DNA from: Bacteroidota bacterium
GTDB taxonomy: Bacteria; Bacteroidota; JABWAT01
Length of the DNA stretch: 64,000 bases
Reading direction: 5' to 3'
NCBI GenBank assembly: GCA_017303995.1
Contig: JAFLBE010000025.1
Location: 1-64,000 of the forward strand
Numbering within the stretch: position 1 is the stretch's first letter; every line of letters starts with the position of its first letter. Below the pieces are notes generated by a model. That model made no database searches. It was not told the origin of the DNA and saw nothing but the letters and a program-made list of their open reading frames with translations. The position numbers and the translations under genes are program-made. Below are positions 10,498 to 62,407 of this stretch, piece by piece.

Positions 10498-11574
10498 TTA
10501 AAAGTAAAAATTCAATCCAATATGAGTTTGGGAAACCCATTTATCAAACGATACTTTTTCATCATTTGATTGGTAATACATGCCAGGTTCCATCACACTG
10601 GTTTGACTGTTATAAAAGGTAGTTTTATTCCATATTTTTCTTTTATATGTGGTTTCAGACCAGTACCTGATGACTTGATACCCTGCAACAAGAGAGAGAC
10701 CCTGATTAAAGAAATATTCGGCACTTACTTCCACTCCAATCTGCCAGGGTGAATTCAAATCAGAAGTTGCATCATCATAATTGTCAATGACTCCACTATT
10801 TGGATTTTGAATAACAGGAAAGTCTTTACTTTCAGATTTATAGGTGGTTGTTTTCTTTCCGGCAAAGAGTGAAAACCCTGGCTTAGCGTACCCACTCCCC
10901 AAATTTACTTTTCCCTGATACCTGAGTCCTGCACCAAATGTAAATGAGGTTTCTGAATACTTATTTTCATAGCCAGAAATATTTTCATTAAAGGCAGAAT
11001 CGGGTTTACTATTTAAAGAACTCCAGACTCTTCTGGAATTTTTTTCTGTGTTCTCGTCACTTGCATAGTCAAAATACACAAAGCCTGAAACAGGAAAATC
11101 GAATCCAACGAGATATTCAAATGAGAATTTGGCACTGCTGATTTCCTGAATCGAAAATGGGATTCTATCCCCATAATCACTTGTTAAATATAAAATGAAA
11201 GGCCCTGAGCCGATAGTTCTGTATCTGAAACCGAACCCCCAATACGGGTTACTAAATAGATCAGAAAGGCCATTGCTCCCTGAGTTGGTATTAATGTTGC
11301 CCTCTTTAATCAGTTCTGCAAGTTTCTCACGATCAAGCTCAAACTCTTCAGTGTTGTCTTTCGAAACCACATACAGATTCCCATTTGTGGTTTTAAAAAC
11401 AGCCCGTGGCCCATCGAGTTGTTCAATGACTCTTCCTTTTGCAACAGAACCATCTTTCAGTTTAATGTCAATAAATAACGAATCCTGGGTAAGTCCATTG
11501 GTTTGGGCAGATAAAATAAAAGCCTGGGTTAAAAAGAGTAAGGAAGTCAGAAATCCTTTTTTGAACATATTCAT
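10498..11574 (-). CDS. Putative outer-membrane beta-barrel protein
   Basis: 358 residues with a Sec signal peptide (FLTSLLFLTQAFILSAQ, cleavage expected after about residue 24). Residues ~30-75 (DIKLKDGSVAKGRVIEQLDG ... YVVSKDNTEEFEL) look like a small SH3-like or Sm-like beta domain common in FCB secreted proteins. The rest is rich in alternating aromatic beta strands (FGFRYRTIG, FSFEYLVGFDFP, FTFGAGLRYQG, IGVEVSAEYFF) and ends HIGLNFYF, with the terminal Phe expected of a BamA substrate. No enzymatic motif. Monocistronic, facing the yraN terminator. Confidence 0.75.
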   Translation of the reverse strand: MNMFKKGFLTSLLFLTQAFILSAQTNGLTQDSLFIDIKLKDGSVAKGRVIEQLDGPRAVFKTTNGNLYVVSKDNTEEFELDREKLAELIKEGNINTNSGSNGLSDLFSNPYWGFGFRYRTIGSGPFILYLTSDYGDRIPFSIQEISSAKFSFEYLVGFDFPVSGFVYFDYASDENTEKNSRRVWSSLNSKPDSAFNENISGYENKYSETSFTFGAGLRYQGKVNLGSGYAKPGFSLFAGKKTTTYKSESKDFPVIQNPNSGVIDNYDDATSDLNSPWQIGVEVSAEYFFNQGLSLVAGYQVIRYWSETTYKRKIWNKTTFYNSQTSVMEPGMYYQSNDEKVSFDKWVSQTHIGLNFYF

Positions 11575-55114: not shown

Positions 55115-55600
55115 CCAAAATTTCCTTTTGTCTTCGACGAGGTACTTTTCACATGCGAAAAGTACCTAACCCTTCGACTCCGCTCAGGGTCCGTTACCGC
55201 CCACCCACTCTATGACTTGTGGCTGGCACTTCGGCCCTGATCGAATCTAAACTCAGTCGGCGCGTACGCCTCCTTCAAACACAGATTCGATTTAACCGGG
55301 CACTGCGTTTGCCACTACGTCGAGTGGCTGACGGCGGAAAGGATGCAAAATCTTATTTTCATTTATTTTAAAAGGATTTCCACCGTGCGCCGGGCATCCG
55401 AAATCAGCGGCGGATCGCGTGTCGGGTAACATCCGCCAGCGTTCAGCCGCTGAAAGCGGGTGCGGATTTTGCGGTTGGAGGCGGATGGTGTGTTCTGATT
55501 CCGGGTGGGCTTTTGGGTCCTTTTCGCCCTTGAAAAGGACCTCCCAGAAGGGTAATAAAACAAAAAAGAGACGTTGCGTGCAACGTCTCTACCACAAACA
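55115..55600. repeat. ~470-bp structured element, copy A
   Basis: Direct repeat of 56645-57112, about 80 percent alike by eye, without a reading frame. Order of hairpins: AGGTACTTTTC/GAAAAGTACCT (55140-55167), ATCGAATCT/AGATTCGAT with inner GGCG-CGTA-CGCC (55240-55291), a GC-rich region with GGCGGAT/ATCCGCC (about 55409-55437), GGTCCTTTTC/GAAAAGGACC (55516-55541), and a terminal GACGTTGC/GCAACGTC palindrome (55569-55590). Several helices differ from copy B by paired changes. Confidence 0.85.
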
Positions 55601-55618
55601 AAACCAAATCATAATCCA

Positions 55619-56239
55619 TTAAAACAAATAATTCATATCCAATTTCATCATACCAATCCGGGTGACATTGAAAAATTTATCCTGGGCAGCAAAACATTGT
55701 TCCATGGCTGCTTGAAATCCGGCTTCGAGGCGACCCTGTTCTTTCATCCTTGCCAGTTCCCAGCTTGCCTGCTGATGATCCTGTTCAAGCTGTTCGGCTT
55801 CTTTGCTTTTTGCTTTTTTCACCGGCAGGTTTTTCAACGCTTCAGCGGAAGTGACCAGCCTGGTCATGGTTTCTTTTTGTTTATTGGCATAAGCCAGTTC
55901 AACATCCAACAGATTAAGAAGTGACGCCCGGAATCCCTGGTCATCGCCCGGACTTGCAATTTTATTCAGGCTGTCTTTATAAGCGGTAACGGCTTCGATG
56001 TAGGAAGCGTAAAGGGCAATGAATTTCTTTTCCCCTTCAATGGCAACATCGGGATCTTTTTTCGGATTTCTCGTCACTGCGACGACTTTTTCATTGAGAG
56101 CTTCAAAGGTGAGTTTATGATCGGATATGACGGCGTAAATTCTTCTGAAGTAATTTTCCCACTCGCCCTGTTTTGAATCACAGGCGGAAAGTAGCATCAG
56201 AACAGGAACCCAAACCAGCAAAGTAAACCGTTTTGACAT
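55619..56239 (-). CDS. Lipoprotein, helical, unknown function
   Basis: 206 residues from ATG 56239, which has GGAG 7 bases upstream; the frame extends 48 codons upstream but without a signal. Lipobox LMLLSACDSK (Cys about residue 20). The rest is predicted helical, with charged Lys/Glu-rich segments (KKAKSKEAEQLEQDHQQ) and a core FHQ-like ALNEKVVAVTRNPKKDPDVA. Resembles generic periplasmic coiled-coil lipoproteins; no family recognised. It is flanked by the two copies of the 470-bp repeat, like a gene carried between direct repeats. Confidence 0.75.
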   Translation of the reverse strand: MSKRFTLLVWVPVLMLLSACDSKQGEWENYFRRIYAVISDHKLTFEALNEKVVAVTRNPKKDPDVAIEGEKKFIALYASYIEAVTAYKDSLNKIASPGDDQGFRASLLNLLDVELAYANKQKETMTRLVTSAEALKNLPVKKAKSKEAEQLEQDHQQASWELARMKEQGRLEAGFQAAMEQCFAAQDKFFNVTRIGMMKLDMNYLF

Positions 56240-56644
56240 GGCAATCTCCATTTCAGATAAAGATGGTAGTGCAACCAACTGAATATGCTTCAGTTGAAGA
56301 ATTCTGCGGAAGTAAACAGGTGGGTTCCTTTTTAGCGGTCCGGACAAAAACCAATCCCGGTTTAACCGGATTTGGTTGCTCAAAGGTTGTTAATTTTTGG
56401 GAGAAAGACAAATATTAATGGTTAATGATATCCAAAGAATTGTCATTCCCGCGAAGGCGGGAATCCATCTCCTTTTTCCACGGAATTTATGACCTCATCC
56501 GTCTCCTCGATCGGTGGCCGGATTTACAACTTCTCCCAAGTGAGAAGGGTAAAATTCGGCAGAAATATGAATTTAATAACCCCCTCCAATGGAGGGGGAA
56601 TGGGGGTGGGTTTTCTTTTCCACCAAACTTCCAGAAAATCACCA
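56240..56644. other. Gap with small repeats between lipoprotein and element B
   Basis: 56440-56470 holds TCATTCCCGCGAAGGCGGGA (a palindrome shared with about 51935-51959). 56578-56600 holds CCCCCTCCAATGGAGGGGGA. I see no gene. Confidence 0.6.
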
Positions 56645-57112
56645 AACCGAAATTTCTTTTTGTCTTCGACGACCCCCTTTTGACCGGGCAAAAGGGGGCA
56701 AAACCCCGTACCGCCCAGCCGCTCTGTGACTTGCAACTGGCACTTCGGCCCTGATCGAATCTGAACTCAGTCGCCGCGTACGGCTCCTTCAAACACAGAT
56801 TCGATTTTACCGGGCACTTCGCTTGTTGCTGCGTCGACCGGCTGACGGCGGATAAAATACAAATTCTTATTTTCCTTGTTTCGAAGAATTTCCACCGCGC
56901 GCGGGGCATCCGGAATCAGCGGCGGATCGCGTGTTGGGTAACATCCGCCAGCGTTCAGCCGCTAAAAGCGGGTGCGGATTGTGCGGTTGGAGGCGGATGG
57001 TGTGTTCTGATTCCGGGAGGGCTTTTGGGTACTTTTCGCCCTTGAAAAGTACCTCCCCGAAGGGAAAAAAAACAAAAAAAAGACGTTGCCTGCAACGTCT
57101 CTACCACAAAAA
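56645..57112. repeat. ~470-bp structured element, copy B
   Basis: Second copy, same orientation as 55115-55600. Hairpins in order: CCCCCTTTTG/CAAAAGGGGG (56673-56698), ATCGAATCT/AGATTCGAT with inner GCCG-CGTA-CGGC (56754-56805), GGCGGAT/ATCCGCC, GGTACTTTTC/GAAAAGTACC (57028-57053) and GACGTTGC/GCAACGTC (57082-57101). Small frames reading through it (for example 56931-57158) are repeat artefacts. Confidence 0.85.
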
Positions 57113-57120
57113 ACCAAAAA

Positions 57121-57600
57121 TCAAATCCCCTTCTTCCACTTCTCTATTTCCCGTATAGCCTCAGGCCGGTAATGAAACCTGATCCATTTTTCTTTAGGAC
57201 TGAAACGGAGCTTCAGCGGTGCCTCAGCCGAATCCGTTATGAAAATGTATTTTGTTGCCAGGGGAGTGCTTTTACCCCACTCTTCCCGCGGAAGCAGAAA
57301 CCGGGAACGGGGCGCATAGACCACGACGCCAAACTGACGGACATCCTGCCAGGACAGCACGGTTGTATTGAACAGTCCTTCGGAAGTAATTCCATCTTTT
57401 CCGATTCTGATTTTGGTTGTGCCGTTCAACACCAGCGGAACCAGGATAATCAGCAAAATCACCGACAAGGCGATGAAACTTCCCCAGTTCTGATGGAAAA
57501 TGGACATCCCAATAAAAACCAATAATGCGATGATTAGAATTGAAATGGCAATCAGATAAGGAATTCGGTTAAAGTTCAGTTTTGAAAACTGCACGGGCAC
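57121..57600 (-). CDS. Membrane protein with PH-like domain
   Basis: 159 residues starting at GTG 57600. Two adjacent hydrophobic helices near the N-terminus (YLIAISILIIALLVFIGMSI and FIALSVILLIILVPLVLNG) are followed by a soluble beta domain (KIRIGKDGITSEGLFNTTVLSWQDVRQFGVVVY in parts). It resembles bacterial PH (bPH) membrane proteins of unknown role, with a charged end (EAIREIEKWKKGI). It precedes the defence island in the same direction; whether it belongs there is unclear, since 26 bases separate it from the next gene. Confidence 0.7.
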   Translation of the reverse strand: MPVQFSKLNFNRIPYLIAISILIIALLVFIGMSIFHQNWGSFIALSVILLIILVPLVLNGTTKIRIGKDGITSEGLFNTTVLSWQDVRQFGVVVYAPRSRFLLPREEWGKSTPLATKYIFITDSAEAPLKLRFSPKEKWIRFHYRPEAIREIEKWKKGI

Positions 57601-58604: not shown

Positions 58605-61600
58605 TCAACTTCTGTTCTTCTTAAAATTCTCTGCCTGTTCAAAGATCTCTACATAAACTTCATCCCGTTCGACGGGTGGGTACCCGAATTCATCTAACAG
58701 CAGAATGAGACCAACTTTTAAGGCGGATTTGATGTCGTCACGTTTGTTCCAGTCGGGGAATTTGGCCTGACCATCTACAAGTTCTTTAACGGCTTTTGCC
58801 AGTTCGATCATTTTATCATCGGGATAGCGGAAGTCATATTTGACGCAAAGTTCTTTCAGAATATCGTAAAATGCCTTTTCTTCAAAGTTGATACCCAATG
58901 CATCACCCGCTGAAAACTCTTGCTGAACTTCCCAGATCATATTGGTAAGCTGTTCAGCCATTTCTTCGTAAACTTCACTGCGAAGCACATCATTTTCATC
59001 ACGCTGATTGTACCGTTCAACCAGAACCTGCATTTTCTTGGTGAAATCAATTCCCTTAACCTTATTGACCTTTTTAATCTCCCTGATCACCTTTGCCAGT
59101 AACTGCTGAAGCAATTTGATCTTGGTATTTGGCAATTTGATTTTATCAATTTTAGCCAGATAATCGGCGTCAAATAAATCCTGAACCGGATCATCTTCAC
59201 CCATTTTATACAGTTCTTCAACCCCGTCACTCTGCAAGGCATCCTTAATCATTTCCCTGACTTTTGCATTCATCTGTTCGGTATCAGGTGCATCCCCTTT
59301 GGTAACCTTGAAAACAATTGACCGGACGGCCAGGTAAAAATGAATATGATCCCGCTCTGCCTGTTTCAGTTGTTCACTTCCGGCACAAATATCATAAGCT
59401 GCTTTCAGTCTTCTTACCAACCCCATAAAACGGGTTTCAAACTCTTTGGTCTTCTGAACAAATTCTGCAGCCTGATTGAGTGTATTCAGTTGCTGGAGGG
59501 TTGTTCCGTGGAAATAGTTAGTACTGTTAAATTTGTGGAACAGTTTGGCCAGTAAATCAAGATGATTCCTGACGATACTGACCGACTCAATGATATCTTC
59601 AAAATTATCTTTGTCACCTTCACTGTATTTCTTGAGTGCAAGGTTCATTTGCTTCTTGATGCCGATGTAATCGACGACCAGACCTTTGTTCTTCCCTTCA
59701 AATCTGCGATTAACTCTTGAAATGGTTTGAATTAAATTATGTTCCTGAATGGGTTTGTCTATGTAAATGGAATCCAGAAACGGTACATCAAAACCGGTGA
59801 GCCACATATCGACCACAAGTGCAATTTTGAAATTGGACTTTTCATTCTTGAACTGACGGTCCAGTTCCTTCCGGTACTCTTTGGTTCCCAGTAACTCATA
59901 AAGTGTCTTCGGATCATCCTGATCACGGGTCATGATCATTTTGATCCGTTCAATCGGTTTTAATTCCCGCTTGTCTTTATCAGTCAGGATAACACCTTCA
60001 TCGGAAACCCGAAGCTCATTCCATTCCGGTTTTAAGGCAATGATATTTTGATATAACCGATAGGCAATGTCCCGGTTACTGCAAACAAACATGGCTTTTC
60101 CCTTTACGGTAGCCCCTTCTTTAACCCGGTTTTCGTAATGTCTGACGAAATCTTCTGCAACAGCCTGTAACCGTTTGGGATCACCCAAAATGGCATAAAT
60201 GATAGCTGTTTCTTTCTTGCTTTTCTCTATCTGATACTCATTGGCACCTGCCTGTGCAGCAGACTCGTAATATTTTTCGATCTTCTCGAGCTCGCTGTTA
60301 TTCAGGGCGACTTTGGCAGCCCGTCCTTCATAAACAATTCTGACCGTAATTTCATCCTTTACGGATTCTGTCATGGTATAGGCATCGACCACCTTACCAA
60401 AGACATCGAGTGTGGCATCAATCGGGGTTCCGGTAAAACCGACAAACGTGGCGTTTGGCAGGGAGTCATGTAAATATTTGGCGAAGCCGAAAGATTTGGT
60501 TACACCTTCATCAGTAACTTTTATTTTCTGATCCAGGTTGACCTGACTTCTGTGGGCTTCATCTGAAATACAAATCACATTGGTGCGGTCGGTGAGGAGT
60601 TCTGTATCTTCTGTAAATTTGTGGATGGTGGTTAAAAACACGCCTCCGCTTTTTCTGCCCTGAACCAATTCTCTCAGATGTGCCCGGCTCTCAACACTGA
60701 TGATGGTGTTGTCACCGATGAAGGTTTTGGCGTTAGTAAACTGCCCCGAAAGCTGATCATCCAGATCGGTGCGGTCTGTGATCAGAACAATGGTCGGACT
60801 TTCAAAATACTCACTTTTCATTAACAGCCGGGTGAGGTAAAGCATGGTAAAACTTTTACCGCAGCCAGTTGCACCAAAATACGTTCCGCCTTTACCGTTC
60901 CCTTCAGGGACCTGAGCCTTTTTGATATTATCAAACAAGGCTCTTGCCGCATAATACTGCGGATACCGGCAAACGATTTTCTCGTTTTTCTTTGAACTAT
61001 CGGGGATGTAAATAAAGTTGCGAATGATATCGCGCAACCGGTCTTTATGAAACATGCCCTGAACGAGGGTGTACATACTGTCGATACCATCGACTTCTTT
61101 TGCCAAACCGGCGACTCTGCGCCATGCATAGTAAAACTCATAAGGTGCAAAGAACGAACCGGCTTTGTTATTGACCCCGTCGCTGATAACGCAGAAAGCA
61201 TTATACTTGAACAGTTCGGGAATATCCCTGCGGTAACGGACGGTTAGCTGTTTGTAGGCATCGTGAATGGTAGCATCTTCCCGGATAGCACTTTTAAATT
61301 CAAAAACCACCAGCGGCAACCCGTTTACATAGATGATGCCATCGGGAATGCGTTTTTCATTCCCGGCTATTTCCAACTGGGTAACGAACTTATAGATATT
61401 GGTGTCGTGCCGAGGTAAATAGTCTGTTTCAAGGTTGTTATCACCGGCAATGGTAACCAGGTGATCGGGGTCGGGTTGCCGTTGTTTATTGAGCCCGGCA
61501 TAATTGATAAGCTGAATGTAAATGTCTTTTTGGTTTCGGTTTTCCCGTTTGAGAATAAAACCATCGGAAAGCATTTTGATAAAGGTTTTGTTGCTCTCAT

Positions 61601-61826
61601 AAAGATCTGAAGCAGAAAGGGATTTGAGAAGAAGAAGAATAGATTTGACTTCGTTTACCGTGATACCCTGACTGGCGTATTGTGATAGTAAAAAGGACGT
61701 CAAGTCCTCCTCAAACAACACATCATCAGGCCTGCGGACAAGAGTAATACCAAGGAAATGGGGGAAATCTTCCTGCCCCAGCAACTTGGCAAAAGCCTCT
61801 TCTAATTTTTCTTCAGTGAATTTCAT
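58605..61826 (-). CDS. hsdR: Type I restriction enzyme subunit R
   Basis: DNA translocase and nuclease of a type I restriction-modification system. 1073 residues. N-terminal PD-(D/E)xK-type nuclease about residues 155-185 ([21 protein letters not shown] in parts). Helicase domain: Walker A [16 protein letters not shown] (~319), [11 protein letters not shown], the DEAH-type [11 protein letters not shown] (~422), VGFTGTPID, then [38 protein letters not shown] in parts (motifs V/VI). A C-terminal helical domain binds the rest of the complex. ATG overlaps the TIR gene by 4 bases. The methylase and specificity genes (hsdM, hsdS) are not in the window; they may lie beyond 64000. Confidence 0.94.
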   Translation of the reverse strand: [1073 protein letters not shown]

Positions 61827-62407
61827 TTTTTTCTTTTAAGCCAGTCTTTAAGTTGCGATAGCCTAAATTTACCATTTTCAAGTGGGGTTTTTACATAATA
61901 GCCTTTAAGTATAGTAGTTCCATTTGAATATTTACCACTGCCATCTTCAAATTCGATATGAGGATATATACGTAAATATTCTGCTCCACTAAAGTTTTGA
62001 GAAGTTCTATTTATGGGAAATAATGCGATATGCTCGTTGTACTTTGCTGCATCGCCTAAACCCAACTCCCAATTGCACCATTTAGACTTTATCGCGTTTG
62101 ATGTTGCAACAAGAATAAATTTATTTGCAACTTTGATTTTTTCTTTAAGGCGTAATGCAGTTTTTGCATTTGTATATGCAGGCATTTCTTCATCCATCCA
62201 GTCAACATATATCTCGACACCTTCTTCATTCAAAAAAGCAACAACATCTTGTAAAAGTGTTAACTCATCATGTTTATGAGAAAGAAAAACCATTGGTTTT
62301 GTCCTGTCTCTTGATGAACTTTCATTTAAAACAACAACATCTTTTTTTGAGAAAGTCTTAGTTCTCGGCCTATAACTTGCAAGTTGTGATTCTGTTATGA
62401 AACTCAT
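61823..62407 (-). CDS. TIR-domain protein (3)
   Basis: 194 residues. After ~38 N-terminal residues the TIR domain begins: KPMVFLSHKHDELTLLQDVVAFLNEEG, VEIYVDWMDEEMP, KIKVANKFILVATSNAIKSK and WCNWELGLGDAAKY, with the catalytic-type Glu in NWELGLG. TIR domains of this kind hydrolyse NAD+ or produce cyclic ADP-ribose isomers that activate a partner. The C-terminal ~40 residues (GKYSNGTTILKGYYVKTP) are an extension. Two bases separate it from the TIR-like gene upstream; its end overlaps hsdR, so the defence genes form one operon. Confidence 0.88.
   Translation of the reverse strand: MSFITESQLASYRPRTKTFSKKDVVVLNESSSRDRTKPMVFLSHKHDELTLLQDVVAFLNEEGVEIYVDWMDEEMPAYTNAKTALRLKEKIKVANKFILVATSNAIKSKWCNWELGLGDAAKYNEHIALFPINRTSQNFSGAEYLRIYPHIEFEDGSGKYSNGTTILKGYYVKTPLENGKFRLSQLKDWLKRKK

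Follow-up and report, generated by a model that had tools for sequence, protein, structure and literature searches.

Two repeats in the window, the whole 64,000-nt stretch of a Bacteroidota contig (JAFLBE010000025.1) analysed here, differ at many bases while keeping the same hairpins, which raises the question of what kind of element they are. The first-pass annotation had placed them at 55115-55600 (copy A) and 56645-57112 (copy B), where they are indeed found. It had described a repeat of ~470 bp; such a repeat is present twice but is not a single unit, each copy being a composite of a unit on the + strand and a convergent unit on the - strand, of ~150-200 nt each (Table 1). In both copies the left unit (type I) is read on the + strand and the right unit (type II) on the - strand, and the outer side of each unit carries a small hairpin first and then a structure here called the head. 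CCGCC/GGCGG closes the body of the copy B left unit. In the copy A left unit, an insertion of ~27 nt breaks up and displaces the loop partner, and the loop/tail match of this head is only 1 nt.

Table 1 Coordinates of the repeat units and adjoining features in the window.
Feature	Position	Strand	Basis
Copy A left unit (type I)	55130..55337	+	Covariance model R1 match 55136-55337, 160.7 bits; sequence
Small hairpin GTC-TTC-GAC, copy A left unit	55130-55138	+	
Copy A left head, S1 hairpin GGTACTTTTC-ACATGC-GAAAAGTACC	55141..55166	+	Sequence
Insertion of ~27 nt, copy A left unit	55167-55193	+	
Copy A left unit body, reaching to GACGGCGG	end 55337	+	
Copy A right unit (type II), convergent to left unit	55380..55556	-	
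Copy A right head GGTCCTTTTC-AAGGGC-GAAAAGGACC (- strand sequence), followed by linker CAAAA and tail GCCC	55516-55541	-	
Flanking palindrome GAGACGTTGCGTGCAACGTCTC, separate repeat module beside copy A	55568..55593	.	Sequence
Lipoprotein gene between the copies, 207 aa from ATG	55619..56242	-	
Copy B left unit (type I)	56662..56851	+	Covariance model R1 match 56668-56851, 209.5 bits
Small hairpin, copy B left unit	56662-56670	+	
Copy B head stem S1 CCCCCTTTTG-ACCGGG-CAAAAGGGGG	56673..56698	+	
Copy B linker CAAAA (complement UUUUG), which would lie as third strand against the T/A run of the stem in a triple helix	56699..56703	+	Linker/stem correlation over phyla
Copy B tail CCCCG, pairing with loop CGGG (56685-56688) as pseudoknot stem S2	56704..56708	+	
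Copy B right unit (type II), convergent	56892..57068	-	
Copy B right head; linker 57023-57027; tail 57019-57022	57028-57053	-	
Flanking palindrome AGACGTTGCCTGCAACGTCT beside copy B	57081..57104	.	Homology with G002 begins here

Around the copies, a palindrome of the form GAGACGTTGC-GCAACGTCTC adjoins both (55568-55593 and 57081-57104), and has a different tip, GAGACGCCC-GGGCGTCTC, at the copy A site of the relative G002. Adjoining copy B, we recognised by eye an HsdR-like type I restriction protein (58605-61826) and a possible TIR-domain protein (61823-62407), candidates for a possible defence island.

The paired changes that had drawn attention to the locus are real: the inner stem is GGCG/CGCC in copy A and GCCG/CGGC in copy B, the 3' hairpin GGTCC/GGACC and GGTAC/GTACC, respectively, and the first hairpin changes from GGTACTTTTC/GAAAAGTACC to CCCCCTTTTG/CAAAAGGGGG around 6-nt loops. 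The statement that no reading frame is conserved needs qualification, since a frame of ~60 codons is open in both copies (55419-55622 in copy A, 56931-57158 in copy B); nevertheless, 9 of the 11 differences between the two frames alter the amino acid, so the frame is not kept as protein and coding was rejected. Likewise, a lipoprotein gene does lie between the copies, but as a bystander, because the genes beside other copies are unrelated. Among the matches listed, the neighbours of heads found across bacteria comprised 121 Pfam families, none of them in more than two, and no neighbour protein common to the copies was found among them. All 21 own-genome copies examined were intergenic and showed no gene-orientation preference, on which ground a terminator or leader role was rejected. 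At 10785-11405 of locus L270 in G002, a distant lipoprotein paralogue (21% identity) lies beside another type I copy, the two being placed relative to each other as in the window.

Further copies were found in the genome and its relatives by blastn and with a covariance model. The own genome holds 41 matching pieces (blastn), more than 20 of them type I units, and 20 exact matches to the head, versus none to the reversed pattern. Type I elements are present in two genomes of the same genus and one of the same family, and the type I covariance model had matches in 5 of 248 genomes of the phylum: all four family members searched, plus one other genome with weak head-only matches. This model also matched divergent copies in G003 and the inverted partner, type III (e.g. 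L054 14682-14861, E about 1e-28), which shows a common fold for types I and III. A plasmid collection gave no match to the repeats, Rfam searches of the window at gathering and relaxed (E<=5) thresholds returned nothing relevant, and in the literature we found no description of the head letters or of pseudoknot repeats of this kind.

In an alignment of 14 copies, 96.7% of 574 cells were paired (41 pairs) and 18 pairs covaried with double changes. Double-change cells numbered 80, versus 24.9 in shuffles and with none of 500 shuffles reaching 80, while only 3 cells had one-sided changes; when partner positions were slid along, pairing fell to 35-47%. The larger alignment thus bears out the covariation suspected from two copies, far above shuffles. 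The head consists of a stem (NNNACTTTTG/CAAAAGTNNN), a six-base loop, the linker CAAAA and a tail, in general form ACTTTT-loop-AAAAGT-NNN-CAAAA-tail. The tail complements the loop in almost all copies (dozens of rows, versus 1 in shuffled sequence), three pairs of this second stem, S2, show double changes in the 14-copy alignment, and across 18 distinct own-family heads, aligned in one fixed register, pairing occurs at 67 of 72 loop/tail positions, versus 36.8 when shuffled (0/20000); relatedness among copies remains in the swapped and shuffled controls. The variable loop thus pairs with the bases past the linker, with covariation, as in an H-type pseudoknot. For one copy, RNA folding gave z = -4.5 on the + strand and -3.6 on the - strand, and DNA folding z = -4.4; since these values are all alike, fold energy is no guide to strand or molecule.

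We scanned GTDB species genomes with the pattern ACTTTTN{6,16}AAAAGTNNNCAAAA, and among the matches listed head loci occur in Pseudomonas, Xanthomonas, Burkholderiales, Bacteroidota, Oscillospiraceae and others. The bait fixes ACTTTT, AAAAGT and CAAAA and so shapes the sample of pan-bacterial heads, which is a weak point. A complement of at least 5 nt was present in the tail for 52% of 98 distinct loops listed, versus 11% when loops and tails were swapped; viral contigs found with the head pattern had little or no loop/tail excess. Within the own phylum the pattern matched in 44 of 248 genomes, where single matches are often due to chance, since the reversed control also matches. In the body stem, an internal loop AACTCG-hairpin-CTCA(A/G)ACA recurs in L084, L090, L126, L144, L160 and the type I/III units, and may be a second structural motif shared by several phyla.

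When the linker was left free, its composition followed that of the stem. Stem T-runs of 4, 5, 6 and 7 went with A-runs in A-rich linkers of mostly 4, 5, 5-7 and 6-7, respectively (Spearman 0.86, 69 loci, one head per locus), and 43 heads that deviate from the exact bait fell on the same diagonal. Stems ACTTTTCTTT/AAAGAAAAGT had the linker CAAAAGAAA, with a mirrored GAAA, in 17 of 17 A-rich cases, which reflects the purine arm in mirror order rather than repeating it directly; beyond the fixed AAAA, the mirror match extended over 1.76 bases, versus 0.535 when swapped (0/5000). On the complementary strand, the pyrimidine linker runs parallel to the purine arm, as a third strand does in a major-groove U.A-U / C+.G-C triplex. 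From this covariation signature, the linker probably forms a major-groove triple helix with the stem (U.A-U or T.A-T, and C+.G-C). In H-type pseudoknots of the telomerase RNA and SAM-II type, a linker of pyrimidines runs in parallel along the purine strand of the A-U rich stem, and there is a short second stem; unlike them, the structure proposed here is deduced from covariation, and its sequence and setting are unrelated to theirs.

Heads also tend to face each other. Within 1.5 kb, the pairs listed across phyla were 12 convergent, 2 tandem and 1 divergent (convergent L083 being a single palindrome and tandem L147 spurious), and neighbouring heads of the own genome were 5 convergent, 3 tandem and 1 divergent, in addition to the convergent copy A. 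Convergent heads lie 0.4-1.2 kb apart in several phyla, and some pairs are long near-identical inverted repeats that extend outside the head, with the small hairpin before it. Two inverted units thus form one element, as in REPINs, in 5 of 9 neighbouring pairs of the own genome (plus copy A) and 12 of 15 listed across phyla.

Comparison with G002, whose nuo genes are 97% identical, showed copies gained or lost between close relatives. There, 342 bp lacking copy A stand in place of the 924 bp that contain it in the window, with the flanking palindrome module kept and the element absent. Downstream of the other flanking gene, copy B is missing and homology starts exactly at the AGACGTTGC palindrome, window positions 57081-57593 matching G002 at 91%. 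At the two loci with a comparable empty site in G002, no target-site duplication was seen by eye, and no clean insertion junction was found, the empty loci differing by whole repeat blocks. The elements are, like MITEs, non-autonomous, multicopy and devoid of coding capacity; no parent DNA transposon was found. On another contig of the same genome, an integron integrase scored 435.9 bits, well above the family cut-off (G000:C55:3233-4171; L072, L079).

These observations bear on whether the repeats could be passive palindromes, spread by recombination, with their paired changes made by hairpin-templated correction or by exchange of tips and without selection on the fold. Such a process would account for changes that run nearly all from Watson-Crick to Watson-Crick pairs (the 80 double-change versus 3 one-sided cells), for equal G-T and A-C counts in own-family copies and for tips replaced by unrelated palindromes such as TCCCGAACGCTTTCGGGA. 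It leaves unexplained the stem and linker letters conserved across phyla, the loop/tail pseudoknot, the linker that mirrors the stem and the convergent pairing, and we consider it improbable. Gene conversion among palindromes only, which had been named as the alternative that would undo selection on folding, is likewise not expected to produce the cross-phylum pseudoknot and linker/stem rules; together with the extra copies and the covariation, these rules support such selection. Separately, hairpin parts have been swapped for unrelated palindromes (TCCCGAACGCTTTCGGGA, CCCTTCGACTCCGCTCAGGG) at L057 14489-14683, L258, L054 10828-11009 and L058 5974-6162. This suggests template-switch exchange of palindrome tips, which could have made part of the paired changes.

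As to the folded strand, the non-Watson-Crick pairs in 102 pan-bacterial heads among the matches listed were 43 A-C and 1 G-T, 39 of them at one position, where the fixed A-C mispair reads as a G-U wobble on the complement. The TwoAYGGAY motif lies on the complement strand of the head, the same strand as this G-U reading. The folded strand is therefore probably the complement of the printed head (the - strand for the left units of the window), RNA and single-stranded DNA being candidates alike. In own-family copies, G-T (22) and A-C (19) were equally rare among 1653 cells, with no preference, whereas tRNA acceptor stems in the same data had 32 G-U (G-T) and 3 A-C in 350. Thus, of the initial proposal of a structured RNA or a mobile element, mobile-like behaviour stands, through copy number, convergent pairing and presence or absence against a close relative, but an RNA nature does not follow, G-T being about as frequent as A-C.

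A structured regulatory small RNA, for example a CsrA/RsmA sponge whose copies spread because many of them titrate the protein, would fit the wobble at the fixed position (39 of 102 listed heads) on the TwoAYGGAY strand, as well as the predicted U.A-U triplex, which is typical of RNA. TwoAYGGAY (RF01731) has been described as a likely RNA of no known function, with a range of gamma-Proteobacteria, Clostridiales and the human gut (PMC2864571), and has been proposed as CsrA-binding (PMC4333381). It is a structured multicopy intergenic motif, its described range overlaps that of the head, and in Pseudomonas it makes up the body behind this head. RF01731 matches fall inside the L154 pair, and occur in 13 of 20 genomes picked by the head (at least 83 copies in one) and in 0 of 14 control genomes. 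A head lay within 700 bp of 18 of 30 RF01731 loci; at about 13 of the 30 its offset was fixed at ~120-137 nt, with the head on the 3' side of the motif and in antisense orientation. Since the head stands at a fixed distance from it in Pseudomonas, TwoAYGGAY represents one of the body types within this class; the Rfam match stops short of the head, and the bodies differ.

The regulatory role proposed for TwoAYGGAY does not extend to the own lineage. In contrast to Pseudomonas, the window units have no RF01731 match at gathering threshold or at E<=5, and none of 53 own-family copies has an AYGGAY hairpin loop. CsrA (PF02599) is absent from G000-G003 and, despite the presence of heads, from 9 of 9 own-phylum genomes tested and from G262 and G265-G267. 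Because the own family lacks both CsrA and AYGGAY loops, a CsrA-binding role is not general, and a CsrA sponge was rejected for this lineage. With no G-U excess in own copies and random neighbours as well, we judge a small regulatory RNA unlikely.

The elements also resemble REPINs of the REP/RAYT system (PMC3116915), in which two inverted units likewise form one intergenic, multicopy, hairpin-folding and non-autonomous element, although REPs are ~20 bp and the units here ~150-200 nt with a pseudoknot head. That the heads are themselves recognition hairpins of a Y1 (RAYT) transposase on single-stranded DNA would be in keeping with hairpins bearing a conserved mispair, convergent intergenic pairs in many copies and the presence of Y1 transposases in 21 of the 26 genomes that were searched, but is very unlikely: the own genome has seven Y1 (RAYT-like) loci (L202-L208), which go with other repeats and never with a head, so the link was rejected there, and no Y1 transposase was found in G003, which has type I elements, or in G258, G262, G263 and G264, so that some head-bearing genomes lack RAYTs. 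Several Y1 genes can be seen to lie between REP-like repeats that form distinct families of their own (e.g. around L203, L206 and L207). A search for a partner enzyme found none, the own-genome Y1 transposases carrying other REP families. The Pseudomonas fluorescens repeat families R178, which contains internal inverted repeats of 11 bp, and R200 (PMC2718517) are intergenic as well, at 101 and 320 bp; compared by description, they could be the same elements.

The units have a conserved end structure, pair convergently, turn over between close relatives and are tied to TwoAYGGAY. Their ends fold alike though the letters differ, and therefore they resemble small mobile elements whose recognition takes place on a folded single strand. 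We give an even chance to the reading that the paired units making up copies A and B belong to an intergenic repeat that is non-autonomous, mobile-like and recognised in this way. The outer end of each unit presents the small hairpin and then the head with its ACTTTT/AAAAGT core stem, the variable loop pairing with the bases after CAAAA and the linker mirroring the purine arm of the stem. The same head is carried on lineage-specific bodies (type I/III here, TwoAYGGAY in Pseudomonas). In the proposed mechanism, an enzyme acting in trans would recognise the folded single strand at the element ends and thereby spread it, much as REPINs spread via another structure. Copies do occupy intergenic positions beside unrelated genes, gained or lost between close relatives.

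More tentatively, the window copies may belong to a pan-bacterial class, present in at least Pseudomonadota, Bacteroidota and Bacillota and with TwoAYGGAY among its members, of paired non-autonomous elements that end in a triplex-locked (U.A-U / C+.G-C) pseudoknot whose fold an enzyme recognises in trans. The class is widespread and largely unrecognised among bacterial intergenic elements. It brings scattered unnamed intergenic repeats of many phyla and an orphan Rfam family under one structural definition, and it predicts that the pseudoknot contains a triple helix, that one defined strand folds and that some enzyme recognises the fold. If this is true, bacteria would harbour a widely distributed class of mobile-like elements recognised by their tertiary fold, and how TwoAYGGAY reaches dozens of copies per genome would become approachable.
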